A stretch of DNA of 49,982 bases, taken from Microcoleus sp. FACHB-DQ6. GTDB taxonomy: Bacteria; Cyanobacteriota; Cyanobacteriia; Cyanobacteriales; Microcoleaceae. The position numbers were made by a program, and so were the translations under genes. Position 1 is the stretch's first letter, and each line of letters opens with the position of its first letter. The notes under the pieces are model-generated. The model had not been told where the DNA came from, did not search any database, and saw nothing but the letters and a program-made list of their open reading frames with translations. The stretch is from positions 1 through 49,982 of the forward strand of contig JACJNV010000393.1 in the NCBI GenBank assembly GCA_014695175.1, read 5' to 3'. Shown here piece after piece: positions 26,710-35,580 of the stretch.

Positions 26710-28323
26710 TTAAGAGGCTCCGAAATTCACTTTTGTGACTTCACCTGCGACAACATTAACAGTTTGTTGAATCTGACTGCTATCAACCTTTAACTGATAA
26801 GTTCCCGGAGAAAGCTCGATCGCCCCAAACCATCCTTTGCCATCCGCGCGCAGTTGACGCACCTGGCCAGCAGCATCGATCGACTGCAATGTCAAGCTCG
26901 CACCGTCGCAAGTTTGAGCGCACCGCTGCAAATTTCCGGCGATCGCACCTGTAGTCGGCCGCGACTTCCAAGGCATATCGGGAACCGCTGCTGCTGTCGC
27001 CCACACAGGCTGAGTTTCATAGGTTTTGCCCGTCGCAGCGTCAACGTATTGACTCGGCTGCGAAAGCGCAGTGTAAAACAACTCGTTGCTTTGGGGAACG
27101 TATTTCCAAGGCTGGCGGGGCAAATCACCGCTGCCGCCCGATCGCAGTTCGACATTCGTGTACACGTTGCTGCTAGCGTAGGAATAGAGCACCGTACCTG
27201 CGACGTGATTTCCTTTCGCAGACGGCTGTTCGGCGCGACGAATTTGGTCTAGAGTGTCTTCGATGTAGTTGAGGTAATTGCCGGGGCCGATCGCAATTTG
27301 GCGGTTGTACTGGTGGTCTTTGGCGTACTCGATCCAGCGGTCATAAGCGAGTTTTTGCGATCGTTTGTACTCGCGCTGGTAAGTCATCGGCATCGCCATG
27401 TCTAAGATCCCTTCTTCCAGCCAAGCGCGCCAATCTTGCAATACTTCTTTGTAAGGCTGCGTTTGATACCACCCTGCATCGTTTGTTGGGCCGTCTCCCC
27501 AGGCGATCGTGGCGGCGGTAATTTTAACGCGCGGTTTAATCGCAAGGCTTTCTACATAAAGCTTCCGCACTAAATTTGTTACCTGGTCGCGCCGCCACTG
27601 CATCCAGGCGGGATCGGTGGGTGCGGGTTTGCCCGATCGACCTGTTTGCTGATTGAAACGGGCGATCGCAGTCGGATTGTAGCCCCAAGTCGGCGCGCCG
27701 TAGCGCACATAATCCAACTGTACGCCGTCCACATCGTAGCGCTTCAGCAAGTCCAAATACACGGAAACAGTATAATCTACGGCGTCTGGATGGCCGGGAT
27801 CGAGATAGCCTTGGGCTTCCCCACCGTAAGTCAGCATCGCCCAATTGTCGTTTCCTGGGGCAGAAGGCCCGTGTTGTTGCCAAACGTGACCGGCGGGAAG
27901 TTTGGTACCCGAAACCACCGGCAGCGTCACCATCCAAGCGTGTACTTCAATGCCTGCGGCGTGGGCTTTGTCAATCAAATCTTGCAAGGGATCGAAACCC
28001 GCCGGAACGTTGGGATCGAGGGTGCGGGGTTCGATCGCACTCGTGTAAAAAGCATCGCCACGGCGGCGGACTTGGGCGACGATCGCGTTGGCATTTGCCC
28101 GCTGCGCGTCTGCGATCAATTTTGTGACTTCTTGAGGGGTTTTGAAGCCGGGGTTGAAGGCGTCCACCCAGAAGGCTCGAAATTCGGCGGTTTGGGTTTG
28201 CGGGGGCATAGTTGCGATCGCGCGGGATGGGAAGTTGGAGAACCAACCAGGAGTCAGCAGAAAACTAATTGTTAAGCCGATCAGGAACAAGCTTGACAAA
28301 AAGAATGTTTTGGTCTTTCGCAT
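26710..28323 (-). CDS. Secreted glycoside hydrolase of the GHL10 / DUF187 family
   Basis: The product has 537 residues. The N-terminus (1-~37) is a signal peptide or membrane anchor with a hydrophobic core (FLSSLFLIGLTISFLL). The catalytic barrel follows: FRAFWVDAFNPGFKT, ANAIVAQVRRRGDAFY, GIEVHAWM, and the acidic motif DGVQLDYVRY, as in PF02638 (YngK-like) proteins. The C-terminal ~100 residues form a beta-rich carboxypeptidase-regulatory-like domain. It is probably exported and acts on a cell-wall or extracellular polysaccharide; the substrate is unknown. It lies directly downstream of the accessory island and has a copy of the 19-base repeat (28380-28398) 57 bases upstream of its start. 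Confidence 0.9.
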   Translation of the reverse strand: MRKTKTFFLSSLFLIGLTISFLLTPGWFSNFPSRAIATMPPQTQTAEFRAFWVDAFNPGFKTPQEVTKLIADAQRANANAIVAQVRRRGDAFYTSAIEPRTLDPNVPAGFDPLQDLIDKAHAAGIEVHAWMVTLPVVSGTKLPAGHVWQQHGPSAPGNDNWAMLTYGGEAQGYLDPGHPDAVDYTVSVYLDLLKRYDVDGVQLDYVRYGAPTWGYNPTAIARFNQQTGRSGKPAPTDPAWMQWRRDQVTNLVRKLYVESLAIKPRVKITAATIAWGDGPTNDAGWYQTQPYKEVLQDWRAWLEEGILDMAMPMTYQREYKRSQKLAYDRWIEYAKDHQYNRQIAIGPGNYLNYIEDTLDQIRRAEQPSAKGNHVAGTVLYSYASSNVYTNVELRSGGSGDLPRQPWKYVPQSNELFYTALSQPSQYVDAATGKTYETQPVWATAAAVPDMPWKSRPTTGAIAGNLQRCAQTCDGASLTLQSIDAAGQVRQLRADGKGWFGAIELSPGTYQLKVDSSQIQQTVNVVAGEVTKVNFGAS

Positions 28324-28379: not shown

Positions 28380-28398
28380 CGCTTGACATTTTCGCACA
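28380..28398. repeat. 19-base direct repeat, left copy
   Basis: CGCTTGACATTTTCGCACA occurs here and again, identical and in the same orientation, at 30831-30849. The two copies flank the ParA/ParB-like module. Weaker similarity continues for about 20 bases to the right (a CACAATGG...TTGGG / CACATCGG...TTGGG pattern). Confidence 0.85.
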
Positions 28399-28560: not shown

Positions 28561-29343
28561 TTAGAGGCTAAATAGGGTTTTAATGATTTTCATTTTGGCT
28601 GTATCAAGGCCGGGTTCAAGTTTGGCAATTGGAGTTAGGCTTTTCCACTTGCCTTTATTCGCGGTGAAGATAGCATCGGCTGTTTTTTCAGGATCGATAG
28701 TTTCAAAGCCTCCTATTTTATTAGTGGATAAGTAATTGAGACGGTCAAAAATTTCATCTTTTGATGCACGTTTCACGCTGACTGCTTGAGGAGGAGGAGG
28801 CGGTGGCGGTGGCGGTGATATAGAAAATACTTTAGCAATAAAATCTAATCTCGCCTTAGTCAAACCACATTGTAACTTAGTCAGGGGGGTGAAATCTGAC
28901 CATTGCTCGCGGTTAGAATCTACAATTTTATTTGCCGTTTCAACTGGTTTTACATTCTTCCAATTATGCTCTTTAACTAAGTATTTAAGTACCGCTATAA
29001 TAGTATCTTTTGATGCTGTACTCAGATTGACTTGGGGATTTGCTTCTCGCGCTAGAATCTTCGCTTGTTCAATATTTGATGGTTTTGGGTCAATGACAAT
29101 ACACCATACTAAATCTAATTTGGCTTGTTGAGCTACAGCATAGACAAAGTGATTGCTCACAACTTGATACTGATAGTCGCCTGTTTCTTTAACGATAATC
29201 GGAATCCAATTGCGATTACCTGCTTGCAAGACGGCTTCGGCGGCTCCGGCAATGATAAACTCTGACTCAGAGCAGGGTTCTGCTGACTCAATTTTAGATA
29301 ACTTCAAGTTAATTAACTTACCGATGTTCTCAGAATTACTCAT
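28561..29343 (-). CDS. ParB-like protein with duplicated C-terminal domain
   Basis: The product has 260 residues. The N-terminal ~85 residues have the order of a ParB/Spo0J N-domain (LINLKLSKIES, NWIPIIVKE, YQVVSNHFVYAVAQQAKL, VWCIVID), but where ParB has the CTP-binding GxRRxRA box this protein has SNHFVYAVA. Then come two related ~65-residue units at ~108-172 and ~193-260, each with an ASKD start and the pattern W..(F/L)TP(L/I)(T/A)KL..GL. They are joined by a run of nine prolines. No helix-turn-helix was recognised. The ATG overlaps the ParA-like stop by eight bases (ATGAGTAA), so the two are translationally coupled. Confidence 0.78.
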   Translation of the reverse strand: MSNSENIGKLINLKLSKIESAEPCSESEFIIAGAAEAVLQAGNRNWIPIIVKETGDYQYQVVSNHFVYAVAQQAKLDLVWCIVIDPKPSNIEQAKILAREANPQVNLSTASKDTIIAVLKYLVKEHNWKNVKPVETANKIVDSNREQWSDFTPLTKLQCGLTKARLDFIAKVFSISPPPPPPPPPQAVSVKRASKDEIFDRLNYLSTNKIGGFETIDPEKTADAIFTANKGKWKSLTPIAKLEPGLDTAKMKIIKTLFSL

Positions 29344-30703
29344 ACAAGAAATACTCCTTCGCTAATTTTAAGTAATATTCAGCGGCTTTTTTGTGTAGAA
29401 AAACCGCTGGTTTTCGAGAAAAAGCTGCCGTAGAAACAACTTCATATTCTGGAACACTGAATATAGTTGGGTCAATCACCGTTTTTGTAGATTTAGGCCA
29501 ATAATAGGGTAACAAATTAGTATCTAGAATATAATTATCTCCTTTCTTAAGTGTAAGAATTGCTTTAATTTCTGCATTTGCTCTTTTGATTGAAGCCTCT
29601 GTTTCTTTATGTTTATTGAAAAATATCGGCAAGGCAATAGGGCCACCGTCCTTCCTAAGCTTCTTAACTTCAGGTAAGAATACTTTAATCACTTTAGCAG
29701 CATTTTTTAAAGATGAAAAGTTATTGTGTTCTGTTGGCATGAGGATTACATCGGAAGCTATCACAGAGCTTTTACTAAAAAAAGTCCAGTTCGTAGGTGC
29801 ATCAATTAAGATGTAATCATAATTACGAACAAAAGTCTCAAGCAAATCTCGCAGCCTTGCTGAACCTTTCTCAATTTTTGCTTCATAATCATAAGCCATG
29901 AACTTCGATAATCCTGAATCAGATGGGATGACATCAAATACCTTAACTAATAGACCTGCTTTATCCTTCAGATTAAATGCTTGAAGAGTTTCTTTAACAT
30001 TCAATGCTTCATCAACCAGGCACTCAGATAATTTAACTTTTGCCTCCTGTAAGCCCAATGAATCGGTTAAATCTCCTTGTTGTGGATCGAAGTCAACAAC
30101 AAGCACTTTTTTGTGCTGTTGTCGAAGAATCGCAGCCAAGTTGATTGTCGTTGTAGTTTTTCCCACGCCTCCCTTATCATTATAAATGCAAATTGTTAAA
30201 GCTTTGGGTGGGTTGTCCAGCAAGTTCTTAATTTTAGTAATAATTTTAATAATATTATCTTTGGTTATCCTCATGCAGTCAGTAGCAGGCAATACGATTT
30301 TACCATGTTTGCGGAAGAGCTGGATATCTGTTGAGTTAGTGATAATACCCCATTGAGATGTTTGGCACTTAGGAGCAAGAAGATAACCTGTTATCTGTTC
30401 TTTAGCTTTTTTGTACGTGGGAGTACCTTCTGCTAAGTTAAGGATTACCTTTCCTGATACTCTCCCTTTAACTTCAATGATTAAGTATGGCTTACTCTTA
30501 GCAACTGAAAATTTATCCTCATCGTGATTCTTGCGATCAGCAAAATCAGCAGGACCCTTCCCTGTTTTAAACTGTTGTACCCACTCATCAGAGCTGAATC
30601 CAAGTGCATTTAGAAGGCGTTTGACAAATCTATCTTCGACTTCTGGCTCTTCTGCATTCTCTGAAATACTATCTAAAACTTCATTCCAGTTGATAGTTGT
30701 CAT
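29336..30703 (-). CDS. ParA-family ATPase fused to an N-terminal HsdR_N-like nuclease domain
   Basis: The product has 455 residues. Residues 1-~160 resemble the PD-(D/E)xK domain of type I restriction HsdR N-termini: D53 in PADFAD, E77-x-K79 in LIIEVKGR, and a Q103-x3-Y107 pair (QITGY). Residues ~165-455 form a ParA/Soj ATPase with the deviant Walker A KGGVGKT at 177-183, VVDFDPQQGDLT at 202-213, and a later IDAPTNW motif. ParA proteins normally lack such a nuclease. The gene begins a two-gene operon with the ParB-like gene. Plasmid partition is one reading; a DNA-sensing defence system is another. Beyond the domains, function is inference. Confidence 0.85.
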   Translation of the reverse strand: MTTINWNEVLDSISENAEEPEVEDRFVKRLLNALGFSSDEWVQQFKTGKGPADFADRKNHDEDKFSVAKSKPYLIIEVKGRVSGKVILNLAEGTPTYKKAKEQITGYLLAPKCQTSQWGIITNSTDIQLFRKHGKIVLPATDCMRITKDNIIKIITKIKNLLDNPPKALTICIYNDKGGVGKTTTTINLAAILRQQHKKVLVVDFDPQQGDLTDSLGLQEAKVKLSECLVDEALNVKETLQAFNLKDKAGLLVKVFDVIPSDSGLSKFMAYDYEAKIEKGSARLRDLLETFVRNYDYILIDAPTNWTFFSKSSVIASDVILMPTEHNNFSSLKNAAKVIKVFLPEVKKLRKDGGPIALPIFFNKHKETEASIKRANAEIKAILTLKKGDNYILDTNLLPYYWPKSTKTVIDPTIFSVPEYEVVSTAAFSRKPAVFLHKKAAEYYLKLAKEYFLYE

Positions 30704-30830: not shown

Positions 30831-30849
30831 CGCTTGACATTTTCGCACA
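30831..30849. repeat. 19-base direct repeat, right copy
   Basis: This is the second copy of CGCTTGACATTTTCGCACA (compare 28380-28398). It lies 128 bases upstream of the ParA-like start. It forms the left half of a unit whose right half, at 30864-30881, is itself repeated at 31481-31498. Confidence 0.85.
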
Positions 30850-30871
30850 TCGGTGCAATTTTGGGCGAAAA
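30840..30871. repeat. Imperfect palindrome TTTTCGC / GCGAAAA
   Basis: TTTTCGC (30840-30846) and GCGAAAA (30865-30871) are inverted with an 18-base spacer. It spans the junction of the two repeat families and lies upstream of the ParA/ParB operon, a plausible operator, parS-like site or recombination site. Confidence 0.5.
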
Positions 30872-30881
30872 TAAACTGAAC
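30864..30881. repeat. 18-base direct repeat, left copy
   Basis: GGCGAAAATAAACTGAAC occurs here and again, identical and in the same orientation, at 31481-31498. The two copies flank the toxin-antitoxin pair. Similarity extends a few bases left (ATTTTG). Confidence 0.85.
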
Positions 30882-30900: not shown

Positions 30901-31182
30901 CTAATTTTCTGGATACTTTCTTGAACTGTGAAGGATACGGAGAATTTCTACGCTTTCTTCTTTTACTCGATAGATGATGAGATAAGAGGTATTGGAAATG
31001 ACAAGTTCTCTAGTAGCTTCTACGCGACCAACTCGACCCATAAAAGGAAATTCTGCCAGTTGACCTACAGCACTCTGAATCCTTAAAATTAATTGCCTTG
31101 CTGCCTCTGGATCGTCTTTGACAATATATGCGTGAGCCTGTTCTAGATTTCGCAAAGCTTGTCGCAGCCACTTAATTTTCAT
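30901..31182 (-). CDS. RelE/ParE family toxin
   Basis: The product has 93 residues, the typical length. It has the ParE-like pattern: KWLRQALRNLEQAHAYI, DPEAARQLILRI, LAEFPFMGRVGRVEATRELVI, YLIIYRVKEESVEILRILHSSRKYP. ParE toxins poison gyrase and RelE toxins cleave mRNA at the ribosome. The TRELVISNTSYLIIYRV part looks more ParE-like. It overlaps the antitoxin gene by 11 bases in the usual antitoxin-first order. Confidence 0.92.
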   Translation of the reverse strand: MKIKWLRQALRNLEQAHAYIVKDDPEAARQLILRIQSAVGQLAEFPFMGRVGRVEATRELVISNTSYLIIYRVKEESVEILRILHSSRKYPEN

Positions 31183-31414
31183 TAGTCAATTTGGCAAAAA
31201 CTGCTTGGACTTCATCATCGCTGGCAAAATCTCCAGCTTCGGCCTCGGCAACGCCTTTATTAATCTCATCAAGCAGCCATTGATAGATGTCCAGGTAAGA
31301 AGCGATCGCTTCGTTCAAAACATAAGTTAAATCGCGATCGGTGACAGTAGCGATCGCCTTCAGCGCCTCTTTTTTTTCGCTATCAAGGAGAAATGTAAAA
31401 CTTTCTTGACTCAT
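31172..31414 (-). CDS. Antitoxin of the ParE/RelE pair (ribbon-helix-helix-like)
   Basis: The product has 80 residues. The first ~45 residues have a short strand (SFTFLLDSEKKEALKAIA) and two helices (DLTYVLNEAIASYL) fitting a CopG/RHH fold that binds its own operator. The acidic C-terminal half would wrap the toxin. It is co-transcribed with the toxin. The pair sits exactly between two copies of the 18-base repeat. Confidence 0.85.
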   Translation of the reverse strand: MSQESFTFLLDSEKKEALKAIATVTDRDLTYVLNEAIASYLDIYQWLLDEINKGVAEAEAGDFASDDEVQAVFAKLTNEN

Positions 31415-31480: not shown

Positions 31481-31498
31481 GGCGAAAATAAACTGAAC
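31481..31498. repeat. 18-base direct repeat, right copy
   Basis: This is the second copy of GGCGAAAATAAACTGAAC (compare 30864-30881). It is 24 bases upstream of the start of the restriction-modification gene and so lies in its promoter/leader region. Confidence 0.85.
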
Positions 31499-31522: not shown

Positions 31523-34087
31523 ATGATAGTACCTCACTTTCAAACGCTAGCCCTGACGGGTAACAGCTACTCAACTGCAAGCAATTTACTCGATCGAGTA
31601 GATGGCTGGCGCCAAGAAGCAACCCGAAAGTTGCAGCAAAGCCAGAGAGGAGAAAAGGGACAATTTTTAACACCTTCCTCAGTCGCAAGTTTGATGGCGG
31701 GAATGTTTGAATTTAACTGTCCCGATATATCCCTGTTAGATGCCGGGGCTGGTATTGGTTCCCTGTTAGCAGCCGTTGTTTGCGAACTTTGCCAGCGCCC
31801 AAACAAACCGCACAGCCTGCACGTTACAGCTTATGAAATTGACCTTATTCTGATTGAATACCTCAAGCAAACTTTAGAATTGTGCAGTATTGAATGTCAG
31901 CGTTTTGGGATATCTTTTACCTGTGAGATTCGCGAAATTGATTTTATTCAAGACAGCGCCGATATGTTGCAGCCCAATCTATTTACACAACCAGTAAAAC
32001 GGGAATTTACCCATGCAATTATCAATCCTCCCTATGCCAAGATAGACGCTAAATCCCAAGCCCGAACCTTGCTGCGTTCTATAGGACTAGAAACCAGCAA
32101 TCTCTACGCTGGCTTCACAGTTGCTGCTGCTCACCTGCTCAAACCAAACGGTGAATTAGTGTCGATTACTCCCCGCAGCTTTTGCAACGGTTTATACTTT
32201 CGAGATTTCCGCAAAGTATTCCTTCAAATGATGGCTTTACGCCAAGTACACATCTTTGAATCCCGACAGTTGCCATTTCGCGATGATGCGGTGCTGCAAG
32301 AAACTATTATTGTGCGCGCCACCAAACAAATAGAACAGCCAGATACTGTACTAATTACCTCAAGCAGCAGCGTGGGCGACGACCTGGTTTTGTCTCACCA
32401 ACTGCCCTATACCGCCCTAATTAATCCCAAAGACTCCGAGCAATTTATTCGGATTTTACCGGATTCTGTCAGCCATAAAGTAGTCGAGCAAATGGCTCAA
32501 TTTACTTGCACACTAGAGGAATTAGGCTTAACAGTTTCCACCGGAAAAGTTGTAGATTTTCGTGTTCGCTCTGACTTGCGGCTAAAACCTGAAAACGGTA
32601 CAGTTCCGCTGATTTATCCCGCACACTTTTCGGCTGGCGGTGTTGAATATCCCACAGCAACGAGAAAGCATCAAGCTTTAGCTGTCACGGAAAAAACTGC
32701 TGCACTCCTCGTACCTAACGAACATTATGTTTTGAGCAAGCGCTTCTCGTCAAAGGAAGAGAAAAAGCGAATTGTTGCAGTTGTCTGGGATGCCAATAAA
32801 ATTAATAGTTCTAGCGTAGGTTTTGAGAACCATTTGAATTACTTTCACCAACAGGGACGCGGATTAGACCTCACCCTGGCGCGGGGATTGGCCGTTTATC
32901 TAAATTCGAGTTTGGTAGATGCGTTTTTCCGACTGTTCAACGGACACACTCAAGTTAATGCTACGGATTTACGCAATTTGAAGTATCCTACTGTAGAGCA
33001 ATTACTTTTACTTGGCGCTCAAATAGGAGAAATATTTCCTACACAGCGGGAGATCGATCGACTTGTCGAGAGACAACTGCTGAACGCGACAAATCCGTTA
33101 GAAAATAGTCCGATGACAATCAAAAACCGTATTGATGAATCTCTAGAAATACTTGCAGCGCTGGGTTTTCCAAAAGGTCAGCTTAACGAACGTTCCGCCT
33201 TAACCCTTCTGGCTTTGCTTGACCTCAAGCCAAAGGATGCTTGGGAATCGGCGAAATCTCCACTTCGGGGAATAACACCAATTATGGAATTTATGGAGCA
33301 GGAGTACAGTAAAAAATATGCACCAAATACGCGGGAAACTGTGCGCCGCCAGACTGTGCATCAGTTTCTAGATGCAGGTTTAATTGTTGTTAATCCTGAC
33401 AGTCCCGAACGTCCGGTGAATAGTCCAAAAACTGCATATCAGATAGAAGAAAGTGCTTTAGAACTACTGCGAACTTATGACACTTCAGACTGGGACAAGA
33501 ATGTTCGCGCTTACCTCGCCTCAGTCGAAACCCTGAAGCAACGATATGCACAAGAGCGAGAAATGGCGCGAATTCCAATTACAATCGAAGGTGATGTAAA
33601 AACTATTTCACCCGGAGGTCATAACGTCTTAATATCAAAGATTGTCAGTGAGTTTGCTGAGCGCTTTACTCCTGCTGGCAGACTGCTCTATGTCGGAGAT
33701 ACCGATGAGAAGTTTGCTCATTTCAATGAAGCATCGCTAACTGCATTAGGCGTTACAGTCGATGCTCACGGTAAGATGCCAGATGTAATTGTTCACTTCA
33801 CTGAAAAAAACTGGTTGGTGTTGATTGAAGCTGTTACTTCTCACGGCCCGATTAATCCAAAACGCAAAACTGAGCTTGAGAATCTTTTTAGAAGTTCGAC
33901 AGTACCTCTGGTAATGGTGACAGCTTTCCTCAGCCGCAAGGCTATGGCAGAATATCTCTCTGATATTTCCTGGGAAACTGATGTCTGGGTAGCAGAAGAC
34001 GCTACTCACCTAGTTCATTTTAACGGAGAACATCTTTTGCAGGCTTATTCCCCAAATGAAAATATTTGTGAGTCCGAAGGATGCTAA
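31523..34087 (+). CDS. Fused adenine-specific methyltransferase and BsuBI/PstI-type restriction endonuclease
   Basis: The product has 854 residues. Residues 1-~525 are an N6-adenine methyltransferase: SAM motif LDAGAGIGSLLAAV, acidic motif TAYEID, and catalytic NPPYAK. A target-recognition region fills the rest. From ~532 the sequence reads as a BsuBI/PstI-type endonuclease of the usual ~320 residues: DESLEILAALGFPKGQ..., YAPNTRETVRRQTVHQF, LLYVGDTDEKF, and the active site PDVIVHF ... LIEAVTSHGPI. M and R are normally separate proteins in this family, so this is a single-chain type II system. PstI-like proteins cut CTGCAG, but the specificity here is unknown. Confidence 0.92.
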   Translation: MIVPHFQTLALTGNSYSTASNLLDRVDGWRQEATRKLQQSQRGEKGQFLTPSSVASLMAGMFEFNCPDISLLDAGAGIGSLLAAVVCELCQRPNKPHSLHVTAYEIDLILIEYLKQTLELCSIECQRFGISFTCEIREIDFIQDSADMLQPNLFTQPVKREFTHAIINPPYAKIDAKSQARTLLRSIGLETSNLYAGFTVAAAHLLKPNGELVSITPRSFCNGLYFRDFRKVFLQMMALRQVHIFESRQLPFRDDAVLQETIIVRATKQIEQPDTVLITSSSSVGDDLVLSHQLPYTALINPKDSEQFIRILPDSVSHKVVEQMAQFTCTLEELGLTVSTGKVVDFRVRSDLRLKPENGTVPLIYPAHFSAGGVEYPTATRKHQALAVTEKTAALLVPNEHYVLSKRFSSKEEKKRIVAVVWDANKINSSSVGFENHLNYFHQQGRGLDLTLARGLAVYLNSSLVDAFFRLFNGHTQVNATDLRNLKYPTVEQLLLLGAQIGEIFPTQREIDRLVERQLLNATNPLENSPMTIKNRIDESLEILAALGFPKGQLNERSALTLLALLDLKPKDAWESAKSPLRGITPIMEFMEQEYSKKYAPNTRETVRRQTVHQFLDAGLIVVNPDSPERPVNSPKTAYQIEESALELLRTYDTSDWDKNVRAYLASVETLKQRYAQEREMARIPITIEGDVKTISPGGHNVLISKIVSEFAERFTPAGRLLYVGDTDEKFAHFNEASLTALGVTVDAHGKMPDVIVHFTEKNWLVLIEAVTSHGPINPKRKTELENLFRSSTVPLVMVTAFLSRKAMAEYLSDISWETDVWVAEDATHLVHFNGEHLLQAYSPNENICESEGC

Positions 34088-34215: not shown

Positions 34216-35580
34216 ATGGAAAAAAAGCAAAACGCTGGATTGTGGGTATCAGTATTGTATTTCGCTCAAGGTCTCCCTTACACCGTCGTTAATGTAATGT
34301 CGGTGATTTTTTTGAAAGGTATGGGAACCGACAACGAGACCATCGGATTGACAAGTATTTTGCAGTTTCCTTGGGTTTTAAAAGGTTTGTGGGGGCCAGT
34401 TGTTGAGTTGCATTCCACCAAACGCAAATGGATTTTAACAACCGAAATCATTTGTGCTTTCCTGTTTGCTTTCCTGGCTTTTGGCGTATTAACGCCGGCA
34501 CCGATTATTATATCGCTTGTTATCTTTACGGCGATCGCCTTTGTGTCAGCTACTCACGACATCGCCATTGACGGATTTTATTTAAACACTCTCAATAAAG
34601 ACCAGCAAGCCTTGTTTGTCGGGGTTCGCAACACGGCTTATAGAGGTGCTGTCATTGCAGGTAGCGGTTTATTGGTTTTCTTAGCGGGGAAACTGGCAGA
34701 ACAGCATTTAGTCACCGGAAATACAGGCGACACCAAAACATATCAAAACATTCCGCTGTCACTTTTCGGTTCGGATTTTAGCGTGTCTGCGCTTAACTAC
34801 GGATGGGCTACAGCCTTTGGCATTTGTGCGATTATATTTGTGCTGATATATCTCTTTCAGCGGTGGTATCTTCCCTATCCTAGAAATTACGATATAGAAT
34901 CCGGCGCCCCCCAACAAACAACAAGCTTTATCGAAGCATTTAAAACATATTTTAAGCAAGATAAAATTGGTTGGATTGTTACTTATGTCTTGATTTTTAG
35001 GTTAGGCGATGCCTTGACGTTTAAAATGGCTCCGCCATTTTTAATGGATAAAGTGGAGAAAGGAGGATTAGGAGTTTCTACATCGGACATGGGTCTGTTA
35101 TCGGGTACGATCGGGGTAATGTTTCTGTTAATAGGAGGGTTGCTGGGCGGCTATTTGATTGCTAAACAAGGATTGAAAAAATGGATGTGGCCGACGGCAA
35201 TTCTGCAAAATTCAACTAACGTGCTGTATTGGCTGTTGGCAATCCATCAACCGGGGATTGAATGGGCTTATGCTGTAAACTCGATCGAGCAATTTACTTA
35301 CGGACTTGGGGTAGCTGCCTATACAGTGTTCTTGATGCGGACTGTCCGCCCGGAATACGAAGCATCTCACTATGCAATTACAACGGCTTTTATGGCCGCA
35401 GGAGTGCTGATTCCGGGTGCTCTTAGCGGCTACTTGCAGACGAATCTCGGCTATCAAAATTATTTTTTGATGAGCGCGCTGGCTGTGATTCCCGGTATGC
35501 TGACCATTTTCTTTCTGCCCCTAGAAGATGAGAAAAAATTAGCATCGATGCCCAGGCCGGGACTGGACGATTTCGATTAA
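34216..35580 (+). CDS. AmpG-like MFS transporter
   Basis: The product has 454 residues with about twelve membrane segments. The N-terminus LYFAQGLPYTVVNVMSVIFLKGMG and FPWVLKGLWGPVVE are typical of the AmpG/SLC33 (PAT) branch of the major facilitator superfamily. AmpG imports muropeptides and SLC33 proteins carry acetyl-CoA; the cargo here is unknown. The ATG at 34216 opens the hydrophobic N-terminus directly. It is separate from the restriction-modification gene by 128 bases. Confidence 0.88.
   Translation: MEKKQNAGLWVSVLYFAQGLPYTVVNVMSVIFLKGMGTDNETIGLTSILQFPWVLKGLWGPVVELHSTKRKWILTTEIICAFLFAFLAFGVLTPAPIIISLVIFTAIAFVSATHDIAIDGFYLNTLNKDQQALFVGVRNTAYRGAVIAGSGLLVFLAGKLAEQHLVTGNTGDTKTYQNIPLSLFGSDFSVSALNYGWATAFGICAIIFVLIYLFQRWYLPYPRNYDIESGAPQQTTSFIEAFKTYFKQDKIGWIVTYVLIFRLGDALTFKMAPPFLMDKVEKGGLGVSTSDMGLLSGTIGVMFLLIGGLLGGYLIAKQGLKKWMWPTAILQNSTNVLYWLLAIHQPGIEWAYAVNSIEQFTYGLGVAAYTVFLMRTVRPEYEASHYAITTAFMAAGVLIPGALSGYLQTNLGYQNYFLMSALAVIPGMLTIFFLPLEDEKKLASMPRPGLDDFD

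Follow-up and report, generated by a model that had tools for sequence, protein, structure and literature searches.

The 49,982-nucleotide stretch analysed here (the window; contig JACJNV010000393.1 of Microcoleus sp. FACHB-DQ6, assembly GCA_014695175.1) contains two overlapping genes, encoding a nuclease-ParA fusion protein and a ParB-like partner, that are probably a defence or conflict module of a new kind and not a system of ordinary DNA partition. The pair is read here as a two-gene, horizontally exchanged conflict or defence module with DNA as its target because the nuclease and ATPase residues are intact, the partner is conserved, occurrence is patchy and mobile, restriction genes take the place of the module in a variable chromosomal slot, and evolution is fast; in our estimation the case for this reading and the case against it are about equally strong. 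The two genes and the domains of the fusion are as follows:

29336..30703, minus strand: nuclease-ParA fusion, 455 aa, with a PD-(D/E)xK domain in residues 1-160 and a ParA ATPase domain in residues ~165-455
30224..30703, minus strand: predicted PD-(D/E)xK nuclease domain, residues 1-160, with E19, D53, E77, K79 and Q103 (from fold model, Foldseek and conservation)
29339..30211, minus strand: ParA-family ATPase domain, with Walker A motif KGGVGKT at 177-183, D204, D206 and D301 (from AAA_31 and Soj/ParA relatives in the PDB)
28561..29343, minus strand: partner, 260 aa, with a degenerate ParB_N-like domain lacking GxRR, a middle region ("NLSTAS") that recurs as a C-terminal repeat, and a proline linker

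According to its modelled structure, the N-terminal domain of the fusion is a member of the PD-(D/E)xK nuclease superfamily, with cleavage itself a prediction. Sequence searches left this assignment weak, and it is because of the structure model that it could be settled. Against Pfam HSDR_N_2 the domain of the window scores below the cut-off (expectation value, E, 0.003; 18 bits where 25 are needed), and the same family is matched by 12 of 13 homologues (best E 2.1e-6). Residues 1-163 searched alone gave no match by sequence in the PDB, a profile query included, and none in NCBIfam. Modelled with AlphaFold2 from 50 input sequences, residues 1-168 reached a mean predicted local distance difference test score (pLDDT) of 95.1 (a model of the whole fusion from 11 close sequences was poor, at 57.5), and the top Foldseek match of the 1-168 model in the PDB was BpuSI, a type IIG restriction enzyme (E 1.5e-4, probability 1.00), the sole PDB fold match at E ≤ 0.001, followed by the restriction-endonuclease-like structure 3ijm (E 1.9e-3) and by HsdR of EcoR124I (E 0.014); in BFVD the model matched nothing at E ≤ 0.001. 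The original prediction, made from the letters of the window, had proposed an HsdR-like PD-(D/E)xK fold for residues 1-160, and the fold search, which could have come back without any such fold, bears this out.

Conservation was read from the main family of fusions, in which D53 is kept in 49 of the 50 rows that have the column, E77 in 52/52, K79 in 51/52 and Q103 in 52/52, and the D, E and K of the nuclease are also kept in all four copies of a more distant fusion type. Of the motif originally pointed out, D53, E77-x-K79 and Q103-x3-Y107, only the tyrosine fails to hold, being present in 41 of 52 rows. A chance match to the motif was considered and rejected on the fold model and on conservation across domains that are 33-84% identical to that of the window. 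The alignment of fusions (A3) omits eight copies that are broken, cut or partly missing (L006, L012, L066, L078, L079, L087, L088 and L089; L and G numbers denote loci and genomes, respectively), L087 having no match to an open reading frame (ORF), and L094 and L095 were dropped from the counts as duplicates of L058 and L069. The opposite (plus) strand of the stretch occupied by the fusion contains many stops.

The ATPase half needs less argument. Pfam AAA_31 matches residues 170-331 (E 1.8e-31), Soj/ParA proteins are the closest solved relatives of the fusion by sequence (PDB; best E 7.7e-21), and K177 (51/52), K182 (52/52), D204 (50/52) and D206 (50/52) are kept throughout the main family, in agreement with the earlier description of a complete ParA with KGGVGKT at 177-183.

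The ParB-like neighbour of the fusion is, as judged from its sequence, real but degenerate. In the window the two genes overlap by 8 bp, and the partner matches Pfam ParB_N marginally (E 0.039; 14.4 bits against a cut-off of 26.3). Across the partner family (n=48, E up to 1) ParB_N is matched in 43 members (best 7.8e-5), Rho_N in 24 (best 1.2e-9) and SAP in 21; none of the 48 has the GxRR box, which in ParB is the nucleotide motif, and an asparagine at residue 64 is near-invariant (47/48, with one gap). In the partner of the window, a C-terminal repeat of its own middle region replaces Rho_N, as read from the sequence and the alignment (A4, from which L088 and the second of two partner-like ORFs at L054 are left out). 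Searches of the partner against the PDB gave unconvincing matches only. A downstream partner gene is present at 43 of the 51 main-family loci besides the window, with one fragment and seven loci without, so that fusion and partner occur together at 44 of 52 loci with the window counted; the coupling to a ParB-like gene that had been proposed therefore stands, with a degenerate partner. Spacing ranges from a 58-bp overlap to a 54-bp gap; in L006 the fusion is broken, and the partner follows its second piece. In a clustering of the genes at 55 loci, the fusion (present in 55) and the partner (in 47) are the only genes shared widely, the next cluster being present in nine, which speaks in favour of a two-gene module. 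Two partnerless loci, L012 and L089, are cut at contig ends. A partner is present beside all four distant plasmid copies, and beside a copy on a viral contig (L116, read from ORFs). Upstream regions, when aligned, displayed conserved stretches and no clear parS, in an analysis that included no search aimed at parS. Two further partner-like genes were noted: one at L054 (4534-4905), some 4 kb from the module, on a 34-kb contig (possibly a plasmid) that also has an extra ParA nearby, and a weakly ParB- or partner-like gene in the genome of the window itself, near another ParA (G000:C219:1275-3955; a 502-aa frame, 31% identical).

Within the data searched, the fusion was found only in cyanobacteria, absence elsewhere resting on 72,556 plasmid records, 50,697 phage records and one pattern-based scan of genome contigs, in which all 12 fusion loci were cyanobacterial by title. 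At E ≤ 1e-60, main-family fusions occur in 39 of 386 cyanobacterial genomes and in 29 of 142 genera; among these 39 carriers the fusion is truncated in G145 and has an internal stop in G121, and in at least 17 it is located on a contig of chromosome size (≥ 1.9 Mb). Occurrence is patchy even at close range: in genus g24 the module is present in 10 of 12 genomes, the exceptions being G402, with a site lacking the module, and G403, with a deletion remnant that retains the C-terminal part of the partner only. In this remnant (L229, 10582-10971) the first codons of the fusion are followed by the C-terminal half of the partner, which still forms an open frame.

Among the plasmid records the N-terminal domain was likewise confined to cyanobacteria, with two records of the window type, both from one Nostoc strain, and six of the distant type, one record belonging to both sets. 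The distant subfamily is 25-27% identical to the protein of the window and is found on plasmids of Leptolyngbya, Pseudanabaena and Nostoc; in the sister genome G099 a distant-subfamily fusion lies on the single contig of 6.7 Mb (G099:C1:5644681-5646045). The smallest carrier plasmid, with a distant-type copy, has 12.6 kb and 18 annotated genes, and its gene table names no other segregation gene; in Pfam searches with 10 of the 18 proteins, the fusion and its partner alone matched ParA or ParB_N families. ParM is also encoded on two module-bearing Nostoc plasmids; on a third, which carries the distant type, a ParA-ParB pair exists besides the module. No place covering 80% of the fusion was found in the phage records. 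A scan of the best 80 of 250 relatives on viral contigs yielded one in which the N-terminal domain was covered, the fusion and partner of L116 (7986-10009) on a 58-kb IMG/VR contig with other genes of plasmid- or phage-like appearance. The notion that the loci are for the most part plasmid partition systems of the ordinary sort with a normal parB, against which the original prediction had asked to be checked, was rejected on the chromosome-size contigs, on the single strain with close copies among 72,556 plasmid records, and on a partner in which GxRR is found in 0/48 cases.

In the window, the module occupies a variable slot between two constant border genes, together with a toxin-antitoxin pair and a fused restriction-methylase:

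26710..28323, minus strand: GHL10-family protein gene, constant border of the slot (Pfam)
28380..28398: left copy of a 19-bp direct repeat, CGCTTGACATTTTCGCACA, boundary of the module
30831..30849: second, exact copy of CGCTTGACATTTTCGCACA on the right side of the module
30901-31182, minus strand: RelE/ParE-type toxin in the variable slot (PF05016, E 4.7e-20)
31172-31414, minus strand: presumed antitoxin of this toxin, without a Pfam match (the pair spans 30901..31414)
31523..34087, plus strand: fused N6-methyltransferase and BsuBI/PstI-type restriction enzyme (PF06616, E 1.1e-55; PF17728, 1.4e-52; Eco57I, 4.5e-10; MTase_II/REase_II in PADLOC)
34216..35580, plus strand: MFS transporter gene, the other constant border (Pfam)

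Twenty genomes of the genus, that of the window included, were surveyed for this slot, and GHL10 and MFS lie on one contig in 14 of them, at distances from 476 bp (G388, where nothing recognisable lies between) to 5.9 kb (the window and G099). Restriction or toxin/antitoxin genes, or fragments of them, fill the slot in 13 of the 14. Next to GHL10, G099, G394, G336 and G354 have a C5-methyltransferase (HaeIII/HhaI-like) with a 376-aa ORF, for which no family name was found and which is at most a candidate for a cognate restriction enzyme. A ParE toxin with its antitoxin is present in G393, G099, G398, G390 and G039, and the antitoxin alone in G391; G203 has an antitoxin and a broken toxin. The BsuBI-type fused restriction-methylase is complete in the window, G099 and G387, and truncated or in fragments in G394, G393, G203, G039, G392 and G398. 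The slot of G392 further contains a TnpB-like fragment (read from sequence), and those of G398 and G039 an unnamed ORF of 207-209 aa. In G099 the methyltransferase pair lies between GHL10 and the toxin-antitoxin genes, the exact place of the module in the window, and near-identical repeats flank this pair in G099 (L219) and G394 (L217). At the empty site of G203 (L218), both flanks join at one copy of the repeat, with one mismatch. Exchange of the module within a restriction/toxin slot is seen at this one site in the genus of the window. The same GHL10-MFS slot holds the module in L003, from a Microcoleaceae metagenome-assembled genome (MAG). Two further features of the slot concern its other occupants: the toxin-antitoxin pair is flanked by an 18-bp direct repeat, GGCGAAAATAAACTGAAC (30864-30881 and 31481-31498), which suggests that it too is an exchangeable cassette, and in sister genomes (L216, L217, L218, L222 and L224) much or all of the restriction half of the fused restriction-methylase is gone, the methylase part remaining.

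Comparison of homologous loci demonstrates horizontal movement of the module. Between the window and L003, synonymous differences amount to 29/295 in the fusion and 33/172 in the partner, as against 102/345 in GHL10 and 103/314 in MFS; the fusion has therefore been exchanged more recently than the genes at its borders. A tree of 53 fusions splits families f4, f5, f6 and f22 and has plasmid and chromosomal copies intermixed, with five changes needed between plasmid or viral copies and the others; this is a quick IQ-TREE tree with SH-aLRT support only, omitting L006, L012, L087, L088 and L089, and L054 was counted as a plasmid by inference from its 34-kb contig.

By its ratio of non-synonymous to synonymous substitution rates (dN/dS), the fusion gene is evolving faster than most of its neighbours. 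In genus g24 (L066 omitted) the ratio is 0.62 for the fusion and 0.11 for the partner, with 0.08, 0.14, 0.18 and 0.37 for four neighbours, and within the fusion it rises to 0.92 in residues 241-285 and 0.79 in the C-terminal part. Corresponding values are 0.35 (fusion), 0.21 (partner) and 0.12-0.13 (neighbours) in the lineage of the window, and 0.23, 0.20 and 0.08-0.14 in Nostoc. A test on variable codons, covering four g24 genomes only (L063, L067, L068 and L071), separated the fusion from MetRS (p 4e-12), c7 (6e-8), PlsC (5e-4) and the partner (1e-3).

ParA proteins in the ATP-bound state dimerise on DNA. If the ParA part of the fusion does likewise, dimerisation would bring together two PD-(D/E)xK domains, and both strands of an invading or competing DNA could then be cut. 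The partner, a ParB fold that has lost GxRR and gained a Rho_N- or SAP-like or a repeated C-terminal domain, may recognise either the target or some sign of infection, and turn the ATPase and the nuclease on or off in response. We infer such an ATP-driven mechanism from what holds for ParA and PD-(D/E)xK proteins generally. The fullest form of the proposal, an immune system in which the ParA ATPase cycle would find, corral and cut foreign replicons under the control of a ParB-fold sensor or switch, is tentative, and we consider it somewhat more likely to fail than to hold.

Several results weigh against a conflict or defence module. The slot evidence is that of one hotspot in one genus. Beyond it, a comparison of the seven nearest genes at 20 loci with seven genes from the centre of each of 20 control regions in the same genomes revealed no clear enrichment in defence families, either with PADLOC or with Pfam. 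For PADLOC (140 test and 140 control proteins, thresholds 1e-20 and 1e-60), families rather than proteins were counted, among at most 25 families listed and mostly with one protein each. At 1e-60 the test neighbours gave 10 families, eight of them restriction or methyltransferase models, and the controls 16, including PD-T4-6, PD-T4-2, DpdF, Cas12f, two MTase_II, PsyrT and NsnA, and no restriction-enzyme model; this contrast leans towards defence but is too thin to use. (PD-T4-6 and DpdF are models of kinase and helicase type, respectively.) Pfam at 1e-8 identified mostly housekeeping families among the 25 of 154 listed for the test neighbours, with AAA_21 (three proteins), Uma2 (two) and RRXRR (two) as exceptions among those listed; for the controls, 25 of 203 families were listed. 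A rough motif scan of the neighbouring genes gave nothing useful. The co-occurrence with defence islands looked for in the original prediction is thus seen at the hotspot in the genus of the window and does not extend clearly to the 20 loci. Moreover, five carriers (L081, L083, L084, L059 and L073) have no partner anywhere in their genomes at E ≤ 0.01, and in the partnerless f24 group among them (L081, L083, L084) the fusion has a dN/dS of 0.15, i.e. it is under purifying selection, this figure being for the fusion alone. The variable-codon test detected no significant difference between the fusion and one neighbour, GAF139 (dN/dS 0.37; p = 0.10), and since the overall dN/dS of the fusion is below 1, relaxed constraint could also account for its rate. 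Finally, at L051 (9337-10716) the fusion carries D53 to G and K79 to T changes and is otherwise intact, with its partner present and atp genes close by, and the plasmid copies of the module would suit a role in maintenance equally well.

This last point is the core of the main rival explanation, a partition or replicon-maintenance system with an added nuclease that, for example, destroys competing replicons or processes its own, the chromosomal copies being derived from plasmids. A ParA adjoining a ParB-fold gene is what such a system would look like; the distant subfamily provides the only ParA/ParB_N pair found on the 12.6-kb plasmid (among the 10 of 18 proteins scanned), other relatives reside on cyanobacterial plasmids and on the 58-kb viral contig, and the tree does not separate plasmid from chromosomal copies. 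Yet at least 17 of the 39 carriers have the fusion on contigs of 1.9 Mb or more, two Nostoc carrier plasmids already have ParM and a third (of the distant type) its own ParA-ParB pair, the partner lacks GxRR, and the fusion evolves fast where a partition ATPase would be expected to be conserved. On balance we regard this rival as unlikely, though it is the strongest of the three. The earlier suggestion of a machine other than plain partition is favoured by the restriction/toxin slot and the fast evolution, but falls short of proof given the lack of clear defence enrichment (20 loci against 20) and by relatives on small plasmids.

Less probable still is a domain of PD-(D/E)xK fold that serves in DNA binding or regulation only, in place of the helix-turn-helix (HTH) of type Ia ParA proteins, the pair then positioning DNA or other cargo. 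Type Ia ParA proteins do have long N-terminal DNA-binding extensions with HTH motifs, and L051 has lost the catalytic D and K while keeping the rest of the protein; binding alone, however, would require none of the residues that are retained at 49/50 (D), 52/52 (E), 51/52 (K) and 52/52 (Q) in the main family and at 4/4 (D, E and K) in the distant one. A true chromosome-segregation system of some cyanobacteria is suggested by the proximity of the module to atpA, at ~3-34 kb in four of 19 genera checked (L051, L064, L066-L068, L072 and G091), chromosomal parAB being located near atp genes in many bacteria, and by the lack of a match to the ParB family TIGR00180 in seven of 25 carrier genomes. 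The module is close to atpA more often than expected from position alone, but this was noticed after the fact, and since no more than 39 of 386 genomes have the module, and close relatives show empty sites and a deletion remnant, it is dispensable for chromosome inheritance in general; we therefore hold this explanation to be very improbable.

A conflict or defence module of this composition departs from the known systems that it resembles. With ParABS (ParA/Soj, ParB) it shares a ParA ATPase with KGGVGKT and an adjacent downstream ParB_N-like gene, but it has an N-terminal nuclease, a partner without GxRR whose ParB_N score in the window is below the cut-off, and a patchy, often chromosomal distribution, in the genus of the window in a restriction/toxin slot. 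It has the PD-(D/E)xK fold and its D, E-x-K and Q residues in common with HsdR of type I and BpuSI of type IIG systems, and the coupling to an ATPase in common with HsdR; unlike them it has a ParA-type P-loop ATPase instead of a helicase, and no methyltransferase or specificity subunit. OLD and Gabija are two-gene defence systems, likewise small ATPase-nuclease modules that include a partner gene, with a different ATPase superfamily and nuclease arrangement. PADLOC matched the fusion in a P-loop stretch only (PDC-M28B, residues 165-216), with no described model over the whole protein, and gave no match to the partner at E ≤ 1. MinD/ParA-like domains occur in VMAP conflict systems, where, in the part of that work available to us, they are predicted to be inactive (PMC7159879); the module would likewise place a ParA-like protein in a conflict setting, with intact ATPase residues and a fused nuclease. 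Divergent proteins of the ParB-CTPase fold are often linked to mobile elements, according to the accessible part of a survey that applied the Pfam gathering cut-off (PMC12704722). The partner shares this divergence and mobile association, and falls short of the cut-off in the window (14.4 of 26.3 bits); in the same part of the survey, consistent co-encoding with parA is named only for a ParB-DUF3850 fusion (PMC12704722). A literature search found no description of a ParA-nuclease fusion, a provisional result given that most subscription papers lie outside its coverage, and one in line with the original prediction, to which no described system with this pair was known.

The known role of ParA proteins is to position DNA and organelles. 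If the reading of the pair as a conflict or defence module is correct, a nuclease-ParA fusion with a degenerate ParB, swapped for restriction genes, would represent partition machinery turned into a weapon, and ParA-guided nuclease immunity would add a new class to the DNA-targeting defences, with the first ParA joined to an effector nuclease as far as we have found. The module would offer a way to test how ParA-type ATPases distinguish between replicons, and it would add to the study of conflict with phages and plasmids a cyanobacterial module present in about one in ten of the genomes sampled (39/386).

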